Shown one piece after another: positions 32,555-37,498 of a stretch of DNA of 42,822 bases (within the stretch, counting starts at the first letter, position 1; each line of letters starts with the position of its first letter). The notes beneath the pieces were generated by a model. The model ran no database searches. It saw only the letters and a list, made by a program, of their open reading frames with translations, and was not told the origin of the DNA. The DNA is taken from positions 1-42,822 of the IMG/VR virus record IMGVR_UViG_3300034072_001154. One strand, 5' to 3'. Source of the stretch: a virus. The translations under genes were made by a program, and so were the position numbers.

Positions 32555-32724
32555 ATTCCCCCCATCTGCTTCAGCTTCCGATTGGTTGCGCGCTCGCGGG
32601 CGCGCAGCTCTGCCAGCGTCACCCGCTTCACCGGCGCGCCGAACGGCCAGAGCTTGCGGTTGATCCGGTGGGCAACGGACAGCTCCAACTGGTCATTCCT
32701 CATTCCATCCCCCGTCCTGTTCAT
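32551..32724 (-). CDS. small basic protein, 57 aa
   Basis: Starts MNRTGDGMRNDQLELSV at 32724, or at the internal Met eight residues later (32703). Both ends overlap the neighbours as ATGA, so the frame is well supported even though it is short. Arg/Lys-rich helix (LAELRARERATNRKLKQM) toward the end suggests nucleic acid binding. Function unknown. Confidence 0.65.
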   Translation of the reverse strand: MNRTGDGMRNDQLELSVAHRINRKLWPFGAPVKRVTLAELRARERATNRKLKQMGGI

Positions 32725-33779
32725 GCTGGCGGCTGTTCATTGGCGAAGCGCAGTTCGGCGTCGGGGCCGAGCACCGCGTGCATCGCCTGCGCCAGGTCGT
32801 TGGCGAAATTGTCGCGCAGATAGTTGCTGGCGAAGCTGCTGACCGCCACGGCCGTCATCGTGCCGGCATCGATGTCGAGGCGGGACGGCGCGACCCAGCG
32901 GTCATATTGCTGATCGCCGAGCTTGGCCTTGACCAGCGTGCGGATCTTCGCCGCCGCGCCGTTCTCGCGGCTGGTGTCGTGGGCCTTGGCCGGCTGGGCA
33001 GGGCGGGGCGTGGACGGCGGCGCGCTGTGCTGGACGCCGGAGCGAGCATCGCGCAGGATTTGCCCCGTCGATCGATTGATCCACGTGCACCAGGCCTTGT
33101 CCCAGTCGAGCTTGCAGGCGCGGCCGCTCGCCTCGGCCAGCCAGAAGTTCAGAAACGCTTCCGCCTCGGCCTCGTAGGCGCCGGCAGGCCATTGGCGAGC
33201 CTTCGCCTTGGCAGCAGGCGGGAGGTCGGTGAGCGCTGGCGGTTTCCAGTCCGCCGGAATCCGACTTCCCCGATTTCGCTTCTCGGCAGGGTCTTTTGCC
33301 CCCTGGGGGGCTATAGGGGGTTTATTATTATCCTTATCAGATCCTTCCCCTGACACAGCTGTGTCACCCTCCCCATGACAATCTGTCGTGGGGGAGGGCG
33401 TCAATCTGTCATGGGGGGGTGTCAATTTGTCACCCTCCCCCCCTGTCAAATTGTCATGGGGGGTATCGACCTTTGCAGGCGGTTCTACATGGCTGACGCG
33501 GGGCGGCTTATAGCCAGGAAACCTGAAGCTGTTCCAGCCCTGTCCACCATCGCTGCGCACCGCGTCGGACTTCACGATGAAGCCCAGTTCTGCGAGCCGC
33601 TGGACATGGCGCTGCGCCGTGCGGACCGAGATTTCGACCTCATCCGCCAGCCGGCGCATCGACACCTGGCACTCGTCGCCCTTGGGGTTCATCCAGTTGG
33701 CGATGCCGACCAGCACCGCCTTGGTGACGGGATCGCCGGTGCGCTGCTGGCGCGCCCAGTTTTCAGCCTCCCAGCTCAT
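32721..33779 (-). CDS. replication initiator with winged-helix and DnaA-N-like domains
   Basis: 352 residues. Residues 1-75 are a winged helix (MSWEAENWARQQRTGDPVTK, then DEVEISVRTAQRHVQRLAELGFIV as recognition helix region, in outline). Residues 90-175 are a polar linker coded by repeated DNA (33351-33463). Residues about 274-345, including YDRWVAPSRLDIDAG and NYLRDNFANDLAQAMHAVLG, resemble the DnaA N-terminal domain, which recruits the replicative helicase. This is the layout of phage initiators that bind an origin in their own gene, as lambda O does. Couples to the nuclease gene by ATGA. Confidence 0.78.
   Translation of the reverse strand: MSWEAENWARQQRTGDPVTKAVLVGIANWMNPKGDECQVSMRRLADEVEISVRTAQRHVQRLAELGFIVKSDAVRSDGGQGWNSFRFPGYKPPRVSHVEPPAKVDTPHDNLTGGEGDKLTPPHDRLTPSPTTDCHGEGDTAVSGEGSDKDNNKPPIAPQGAKDPAEKRNRGSRIPADWKPPALTDLPPAAKAKARQWPAGAYEAEAEAFLNFWLAEASGRACKLDWDKAWCTWINRSTGQILRDARSGVQHSAPPSTPRPAQPAKAHDTSRENGAAAKIRTLVKAKLGDQQYDRWVAPSRLDIDAGTMTAVAVSSFASNYLRDNFANDLAQAMHAVLGPDAELRFANEQPPA
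33319..33463. other. likely replication origin: iterons plus AT-rich block
   Basis: Within the initiator gene. A perfect 16-bp palindrome TGACACAGCTGTGTCA (33351-33366) is followed by four related sites: GACAATCTGTC (33377-33387), GTCAATCTGTCATGGGGGGG (33400-33419), TGTCAATTTGTCA (33420-33432) and TGTCAAATTGTCATGGGGGG (33444-33463). Their shared core is GTCAANTTGTCA-like. CCCTCCCC and GGGGAGGG flank the first pair. On one side lies an AT-rich run (33320-33337, TTTATTATTATCCTTATC), the expected unwinding site. Confidence 0.7.
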
Positions 33780-35723: not shown

Positions 35724-36286
35724 CAGCCAGCCGCCTCGTGCATCGCCTGCAATGCCGGATGCGCCTGCCCACCGGCCGCGATCAGCACGTCGCGCTTGCC
35801 GATATGGTTGGGCGGGCCCACCACGCCCTTACGCTCCAGCTCCTCGATCAACCGCTGCGCGCTGTTATAGCCGATGCGCATCTGGCGCTGGAGCCAAGAC
35901 GTGGACGCGTTCTGATGATCCACGACCAGGCTCAGCGCGGCGGTGAAGCGCTCCGCGTCATCTGCCGTCGGGGCAGGGGCGGGCCTGCTCGGTTCCGGCC
36001 GGCCGTCATGGCCTTCATACATGTCCGGTTGGCGGCCGGGGCCGTCTTCCATGCCGAGCGCGGACAGATAGGTTTCCAGCACCGCCTGCATTTCCTGACG
36101 GTCGTGCGGCTGCATTTTGCGCAGGCGGATGATCTGGCGCATGATCTTGGGGTCGTAGCCGGTCGCCTTGGCTTCCAGATAGACGTCCTTGATGTCGTCG
36201 CTGATCCCCTTCTTCTCTTCCTCCAGCCGCTCGATGCGCTCGATCAGAAGACGAAGCTGGTCCGCTGCGATGCTGCCCTCAGACAT
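35723..36286 (-). CDS. GapR (DUF2312) - FtsK-gamma fusion protein
   Basis: 187 residues from the ATG at 36286 (a TTG at 36304 is in frame but not needed). Residues 1-80 match GapR/DUF2312: [19 protein letters not shown], then [19 protein letters not shown], and QIIRLRK. GapR of Caulobacter clamps overtwisted DNA. A Pro-rich linker (about 81-111) leads to residues 112-170: [20 protein letters not shown] and [13 protein letters not shown], the FtsK gamma winged helix that reads KOPS sites. I do not recall this pairing as described. First substantial gene of the leftward early operon after the Cro-like regulator. Confidence 0.8.
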
Positions 36287-36333
36287 GTGGTCCCCGCTGT
36301 ACAAAAATGGAACGATAGGTGAACAAAAGATGA

Positions 36334-36582
36334 TTAATCTGTTGGAAATGTCGTTGCGGTTGCGATAGGCGGGGATTCGGCGCTGGGGTCATAGCTCTGC
36401 ATGAACTCCACAATCCGCTGCCCAGTACGCAGGGTGATCGAACGATCCCTCTTCAAGCCGGACACGAGATTGCTGTCGCCAACGGCCAGCCGGCCGAATG
36501 TCGATGGGGGCAAATTATGCTCGGCGCAGAATTGCTCAATGCGCCGGAGCATCTCGGCATCCGTCAAGAGTGCTTGTTCCAT
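36334..36582 (-). CDS. Cro-like helix-turn-helix regulator
   Basis: 82 residues. A five-helix DNA-binding core spans about 8-65: [36 protein letters not shown], then [15 protein letters not shown]. It is divergent from the S24 repressor and first in the leftward operon, the position of Cro. The predicted -10 ends seven bases before the ATG, so its mRNA would be leaderless or almost so, and the second operator copy covers the start codon, which would let a repressor block transcription directly. Confidence 0.8.
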
Positions 36583-36617
36583 AAATCCTACATAACTGGA
36601 TAAATCCTACCCTACAA
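36579..36617 (-). promoter_or_regulatory. leftward early promoter with two operators
   Basis: Minus strand: -35 TTGTAG (36617-36612), one base, operator GTAGGATTTATCC (36610-36598), three bases, -10 TATGTA (36594-36589). A second operator, GTAGGATTTATGG (36591-36579), covers the -10 and start codon of the Cro-like gene. The repressor gene starts 13 bases away on the other side. Confidence 0.7.
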
Positions 36618-36629
36618 GTTGGAAACATC

Positions 36630-37385
36630 ATGCTCGAAACAAGCCCGCATTTGTGGGAAAAATCCAACATGACGAACAGCGACTTCCCGCGGGGCAGAGA
36701 GCTCTATGACGTGCTAATGGCGCTCAAGCCGGTGGGCCTCCCGGAAACGCGATGGGCGGTTGAGGCTGGGCTGAACAAGGCCTTCTTCACCAACATGAAG
36801 GCCGGCATTGGAAGCATCCGAAGCGACAATCTCGAAAAGTTGCTGAACCGCATCGGCAAGTCCGTTGGCGACCTGGCTGGTTCGCCTGATCGACCGCCAG
36901 CCAATGCAGAGCCTGTAGCGTTTGAGGGACGATCGGCAGAGCGAGTGCGCGGAGACTGTCCGGTTTATGGCACTGCCTTGGGGGCAGAGCGAGTGATTGA
37001 CGGGGAGGCAATCGAGCAAACGATGCTGAATTCGGGGGATGTAATTGAATATCGTAAGCGTCCTGCGATCACGAACGGTGTTGAGCGCGTATACGGTCTC
37101 TATGTGCAGGGCTCTTCAATGTACCCAGCCCACCGGGACGGCGCCTTTCTATTCGCGCAGCACGATGTTCCGCTCCGCGTCGGCGATGATGTGGTGGTCT
37201 ACCTCCGGCCGTTGGACGATTCAGACGATGGCAGCACAGCGCGTTGCGTGCTGGTTAAGCGGCTGGTTAAGCGGAACGCGCAGTATGTTGAGTTGGAGCA
37301 GTATACGCCCGCCAAAGTGTTCCGTATCCCGATGGCAGACGTGCTGCGGATCGATAGGGTTCTGACGGCCGACGATTACGCGTAG
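36630..37385 (+). CDS. CI-like repressor, S24 peptidase type
   Basis: 251 residues from the ATG at 36630 (GGAA five bases upstream); an ATG at 36669 would give 238. The N-terminal HTH covers about 22-82 (LPETRWAVEAGLNKAFFTNM, SDNLEKLLNRIG). The C-terminal S24 domain has Ser163 in VQGSSMYP and Lys210 in VLVKRLV, the catalytic pair of LexA-like self-cleavage. It should hold the prophage silent by binding the flanking operators and be inactivated on RecA activation. The exact cleavage bond is not obvious. Confidence 0.9.
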   Translation: MLETSPHLWEKSNMTNSDFPRGRELYDVLMALKPVGLPETRWAVEAGLNKAFFTNMKAGIGSIRSDNLEKLLNRIGKSVGDLAGSPDRPPANAEPVAFEGRSAERVRGDCPVYGTALGAERVIDGEAIEQTMLNSGDVIEYRKRPAITNGVERVYGLYVQGSSMYPAHRDGAFLFAQHDVPLRVGDDVVVYLRPLDDSDDGSTARCVLVKRLVKRNAQYVELEQYTPAKVFRIPMADVLRIDRVLTADDYA

Positions 37386-37413
37386 GAAAAATAAATCCAA
37401 TCCGGTCAATGAG

Positions 37414-37477
37414 GTAGGTTTGATCCGCAGGTAAAATCAAACTTGCGTTTGACAGGTAGGAAATAACCAACTAATTC
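37414..37477 (+). promoter_or_regulatory. rightward early promoter with two operators
   Basis: -35 TTGACA (37449-37454, consensus), one base, operator GTAGGAAATAACC (37456-37468), three bases, -10 TAATTC (37472-37477, weak). A second operator GTAGGTTTGATCC is at 37414-37426. An inverted pair TCAAAC/GTTTGA (37437-37452) overlaps the -35. Same layout as the leftward promoter. Confidence 0.7.
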
Positions 37478-37479
37478 TT

Positions 37480-37498
37480 CTCCCGTAATCAACGGGAG
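37480..37498 (+). promoter_or_regulatory. 5'-terminal hairpin hiding a Shine-Dalgarno
   Basis: CTCCCGT, loop AATCA, ACGGGAG, then GCCAT and the ATG at 37504. The stem's second arm is the ribosome site GGGAGG. It begins where a transcript from the rightward promoter should start. Same plan as the hairpin at 28703-28722 on the other strand. Confidence 0.6.

Follow-up and report, generated by a model that had tools for sequence, protein, structure and literature searches.

We identified what is probably the immunity region of a temperate phage, of the lambda type with the order OR, repressor, OL, in which an S24 repressor bound at two matching operators, OR1 and OL1, would silence both early operons; we put the probability of this reading at roughly 90%. 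The window, by which we mean the whole stretch of DNA analysed, is a viral record of 42,822 bp with a portal related to podovirus portals such as that of BPP-1. No close named relative of the phage was found by DNA search or by a search with the DNA-binding domain.

Layout of the immunity region

A cro-like gene and the repressor gene are transcribed divergently off a common operator region, as they also are in relatives. Beyond the repressor gene lies a second early promoter, PL, with a matching operator, and this is likewise found in 12 relatives. Leading away from the switch, the leftward operon includes the cro-like gene followed by genes for a GapR-like protein, a methyltransferase and a replication initiator; the rightward operon ends in a weakly integrase-like gene. 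The predicted features of the region are as follows.

36334..36582, minus strand: cro-like gene, 82 aa, helix-turn-helix (HTH) (open reading frame; structure model; divergent gene conserved in relatives)
36586..36591, minus strand: half-site GTAGGA overlapping the PR -10/cro start (block in 7 of 13 phages, without a matching second half)
36589..36594, minus strand: PR -10, TATGTA (sequence; equal position in relatives)
36595..36610, minus strand: OR1, 16-bp operator GTAGGATTTATCCAGT filling the PR spacer (14.2 bits, relatives-only matrix; conserved in 12 relatives)
36612..36617, minus strand: PR -35, TTGTAG (sequence; TTG conserved in relatives)
36618..36633, plus strand: OR2 half-site GTTGGAAACATC, 23 bp from OR1 (12.9 bits; GTNGGAAA block at equal spacing in relatives)
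36653..36668, plus strand: OR3 GTGGGAAAAATCCAAC, adjoining the repressor ATG, 58 bp from OR1 (19.1 bits; spacing and sequence type kept in most relatives)
36669..37385, plus strand: repressor, lambda-like HTH domain and S24-like C-terminal domain (Pfam; PHROG; structure model; fold match)
37427..37442, plus strand: OL2 position, decayed site GCAGGTAAAATCAAAC (7.0 bits; spacing to OL1 kept in relatives)
37449..37454, plus strand: PL -35, TTGACA (sequence; conserved)
37456..37471, plus strand: OL1, 16-bp operator GTAGGAAATAACCAAC filling the PL spacer (19.5 bits; conserved in 12 relatives)
37472..37477, plus strand: PL -10, TAATTC (sequence; TA conserved)

Comparison with relatives defines the operator as a 16-bp dyad, GTNGGA-N4-TCCNAC. 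At both promoters the -35 is followed by one base, the operator and then directly the -10, an arrangement that fills the 17-bp spacer and sets the operator 7 nt from the start of the -35 at PR and PL alike. The initial annotation had given the letters and coordinates of the -35, operator and -10 at each promoter, and these agree with the sequence; its proposal of one operator at an equal position in both early promoters around the S24 repressor gene also holds and is repeated in 12 diverged relatives. The 13-bp operator that it described has been superseded by the 16-bp dyad, and the three bases that it placed between operator and -10 belong to the outer end of that dyad. OR1 and OL1 of the window are imperfect dyads (an ACTGGA half; ACC where TCC is expected), and OR1 has one poor half both in the window and in its nearest relatives.

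In a lysogen, a dimer of the S24 repressor would occupy OR1 and OL1 and exclude RNA polymerase from PR and PL, leaving both early operons silent and providing immunity. Such occlusion by a spacer-filling operator is what the position of the sites would predict by analogy with lambda, where operator-bound repressor blocks polymerase at the early promoters.

The repressor

The repressor matches the Pfam S24 family with an E value of 5.9e-4, too weak a match to reach the family's curated cut-off, and also a PHROG annotated as transcriptional repressor. Its structure model has a five-helix HTH domain and a C-terminal half of low confidence, and the best fold match of the model in the PDB is the lambda repressor (3bdn, E 1.3e-4); a sequence search of the PDB returned no meaningful match. 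The reading frame is open from 36630, with 36669 the likelier start. We disfavour the upstream start, given that the distance to OR3 is constant and several relatives have no upstream ATG.

By inspection, the protein has GSSM and VLVKRL motifs, which would supply Ser and Lys, and Leu-Gly (GTALGAER) stands at the expected cleavage site, both in the window and in relatives. RecA-stimulated self-cleavage in lambda-type repressors occurs at Ala-Gly, and the replacement makes SOS self-cleavage of this repressor doubtful.

Conservation and covariation among relatives

Counting the window, 13 phages have the spacer-filling layout at both promoters. The half-site pair of OR1 equals that of OL1 within the same phage in 8 of the 13, against 1.3 expected (permutation, p <= 2e-5, an optimistic value because the relatives share ancestry), and unusual halves are matched between the two sites as well, with GCTGGA in L021 and GACGGA in L019. 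Five phages have an asymmetric shared pair, whose orientation is kept in three and flipped in two (L020 and L023); these reversals argue for selection on binding and against promoter copying. Operator divergence follows that of the repressor DNA-binding domain (Mantel r = 0.43, p = 0.0014) more closely than that of Cro (r = 0.20, p = 0.066), with p values that are optimistic for the same reason of shared ancestry. A lack of covariation between operator and repressor had been named beforehand as a finding that would speak against the proposal, and both the half-site changes and the Mantel result for the repressor show such covariation. The comparison suggested with relatives carrying a different repressor points the same way: no good operator site is present in L028 and L029, with another recognition helix, or in L006 and L012, with the C-terminal domain of the window repressor and another DNA-binding domain. 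Perfect dyads were absent from the spacers of L028/L029, AP-16-3, AmM-1 and the second-class loci described below, a criterion too strict to inform.

These observations bear on which protein is the chief binder at OR1 and OL1. The sites could be mainly Cro operators, bound chiefly by the 82-aa HTH protein, which has an HTH-like model and is encoded divergently beside them; in lambda, Cro and CI use common operators. Operator divergence nevertheless tracks the repressor DNA-binding domain better than Cro, and the operator is lost where that domain differs. We therefore regard Cro as the principal ligand as improbable and favour the S24 repressor in that role, although both proteins are likely to use the OR1/OL1 sites.

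Domain exchange is apparent among these repressors, with L025 keeping the DNA-binding domain and differing in the C-terminal domain, and L006 and L012 showing the reverse. L012 lies in G001, a Sphingomonas metagenome-assembled genome, and searching 398 genomes of its order with the DNA-binding domain brought up a single close prophage (L074) along with six that are distant.

Operator searches and a second repressor class

We scored the window with a matrix trained on relatives only, the window being excluded. The best six sites of the whole 42.8-kb record all fall between 36576 and 37471, with scores of 19.5, 19.1, 14.2, 12.9, 12.9 and 11.8 bits. Across 100 shuffled controls, the top site averaged 10.6 bits (95th percentile 16.1, maximum 20.6) and the second-best 8.2 bits (95th percentile 11.7).

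Viral contigs were also scanned for TTG-N4-operator-TA without recourse to protein homology. This recovered 13 loci at which two divergent pattern promoters lie 1.2 to 2.2 kb apart, some of them close relatives of one another, compared with no divergent pairs among 19 loci in a control with both gaps shifted by +2 nt. Every one of the 13 pairs encloses an open reading frame of 242-326 residues that is S24 repressor-like by inspection. Four belong to the repressor class of the window and nine to a second class, whose DNA-binding domain is distant from that of the window (15.7 bits or less where detected). Where the loop following the recognition helix is RSD, second-class repressors are accompanied by GTTGGA-type operators at both promoters in L034 and L045, and single promoters give the same type in L037 (RSD) and L052 (RAD). 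Those with a TLKK or TAEN loop have GTGGGA at both promoters in L109, L112, L118, L119, L121, L123 and L128.

It is very improbable that the matches reflect chance and ordinary promoter conservation, with similar AT-rich spacers in a GC-rich phage: the switch region is indeed AT-rich (39% vs 64% GC) and the 13-mer with up to two mismatches is not significant in the window by itself (17 matches vs 11.6 expected), but dyad symmetry recurs with constant spacing across a dozen diverged phages, half-sites change together, the gap-shifted control yields no divergent pairs, and OR1 and OL1 share asymmetric pairs despite flipped orientation, which promoter copying would not predict.

A near-identical sequence, TTGTCCGGTTGGATCAGTCCAACTATA, occurs in L033, L035, L041, L047, L049, L055-L058, L069 and L070, where it fits the promoter pattern without a divergent partner.

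Cro and a probable leaderless transcript

The model of the cro product is five-helix and HTH-like, with a mean pLDDT of 75. In the window the cro ATG lies 6 nt after the PR -10, and it is 6-7 nt past the -10 in all 13 phages with the layout. The pattern-found pairs, a set that overlaps with these phages, have an ATG at 6-7 nt in the promoter divergent from the repressor in 13 of 13 cases and in none at the other promoter. Since the cro ATG falls at the expected start of PR transcription and leaves no room for a leader, the cro mRNA is probably leaderless; the repressor mRNA may be leaderless as well. Leaderless cro and cI mRNAs have been demonstrated by RACE in phage PY54 (PMC4488713), and a leaderless cro is thus not unprecedented.

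A more speculative reading, and one that we think rather unlikely to hold as a whole, is that the spacer-filling GTNGGA operator and leaderless cro form one rigid module common to the two diverged repressor classes. The loop would then set the variable letter (A, T or C for the RSD/RAD type and G for TLKK/TAEN), and the GTGGGA half of OR3 would let Cro and repressor be told apart.

Additional operator sites and autoregulation

Two further operator copies had been proposed. The one at 36579-36591 does contain the half-site GTAGGA, yet it has no second half and is not a full operator; the one at 37414-37426 scores below 4 bits, is not conserved in relatives and was rejected. Conserved sites at 36618-36633 (OR2) and 36653-36668 (OR3) had been overlooked. 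Relatives have their second left operator 29-31 bp upstream of OL1, a position that corresponds here to the decayed site at 37427-37442. We saw no third OL site.

The OR2 half-site has its centre some 43 nt upstream of the repressor start codon, and OR3 overlies the expected location of the -10 of the repressor transcript. The position of OR2 would suit an activator acting on a leaderless repressor mRNA, and OR2 and OR3 together probably set repressor autoregulation, with OR3, whose outer half is GTGGGA, the likely place where Cro or excess repressor turns off repressor synthesis. No convincing or conserved PRM -35 or -10 hexamers were found in the window and relatives, and autoregulation is therefore tentative. 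The missing PRM, the imperfect OR1 and OL1 dyads, the decayed OL2 and the sub-cut-off S24 match all count against a lambda-type switch.

An operator-like sequence within the repressor gene, GTTGGACGATTCAGAC (37211-37226), is among the six best sites of the window and scores 12.9 bits, and 18.7 in L014; it may reflect coding constraint or an auxiliary site.

Comparison with known switches

As in lambda, the repressor gene sits between divergent early promoters, and three sites lie between the repressor gene and cro. Lambda also keeps an equal operator offset in PR and PL, although at 10 nt from the -35 start (NC_001416) rather than 7 nt, and its 17-bp OR1 and OL1 run into the -10, whereas the 16-bp operator here lies wholly within the spacer. 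The operator letters differ as well, cro is apparently leaderless here, and lambda's third OL site has no visible counterpart.

Among repressor families with annotated operators, the nearest is that of Rhizobium phage 16-3. The C protein of AP-16-3 is homologous to the window repressor (27.8% identity over 96%, E 4e-13), and in the 16-3 record annotated operators flank c on both sides, one of them within the PL spacer, and the Pc -10 is placed 6 nt before the c ATG. The operators at its PR are placed differently, over the -10 and 5' of the -35, which makes the geometry of PR and PL unequal, unlike here. Operators of the 16-3 type (ACAA-N4/6-TTGT) number three at the AP-16-3 locus and none in the window, and we rejected membership of the 16-3 immunity group on this absence. 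PY54 differs in having a single easily identified operator between cI and cro, and its Cro has been suggested to repress cI and not its own synthesis (PMC4488713).

Agrobacterium phage Rivra (PV764937), which is cultured, has the same kind of 16-bp operator filling the spacer of each promoter around CI, and likewise an ATG 6 nt beyond the -10 of PR. Its repressor is of the second class, with function taken from annotation, and its half-site is GTGGGA rather than GTA/T/CGGA.

Taken with the equal geometry of lambda, the PL-spacer operator of 16-3 and the leaderless cro of PY54, the region appears to be a new immunity specificity of an established switch type, and our understanding of how such switches work is unchanged. 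The apparent novelty lies in the sequence of the operator, in how exact and widespread the spacer-filling layout is, and in the candidate loop-to-base code; a literature search covering few subscription journals found no description of these. The specificity is searchable, and the operator pattern might allow prediction of superinfection immunity groups from DNA alone. Since operator and recognition loop both vary naturally, in cultured Rivra among others, repressor-operator co-evolution can be tested directly.

Neighbouring features

Directly downstream of cro, 35726-36304 (minus strand) encodes a GapR-type DNA-binding domain and an FtsK gamma domain in one protein, an unusual combination. 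The replication-initiator-like protein at 32724-33779 (minus strand) carries an HTH at its N terminus, and its C-terminal part matches the N-terminal domain of DnaA. Where the PL transcript begins, an inverted repeat, CTCCCG-N7-CGGGAG (37480-37498), overlaps the Shine-Dalgarno sequence of the first gene; some relatives have short hairpins there too, but their folding is inconsistent.
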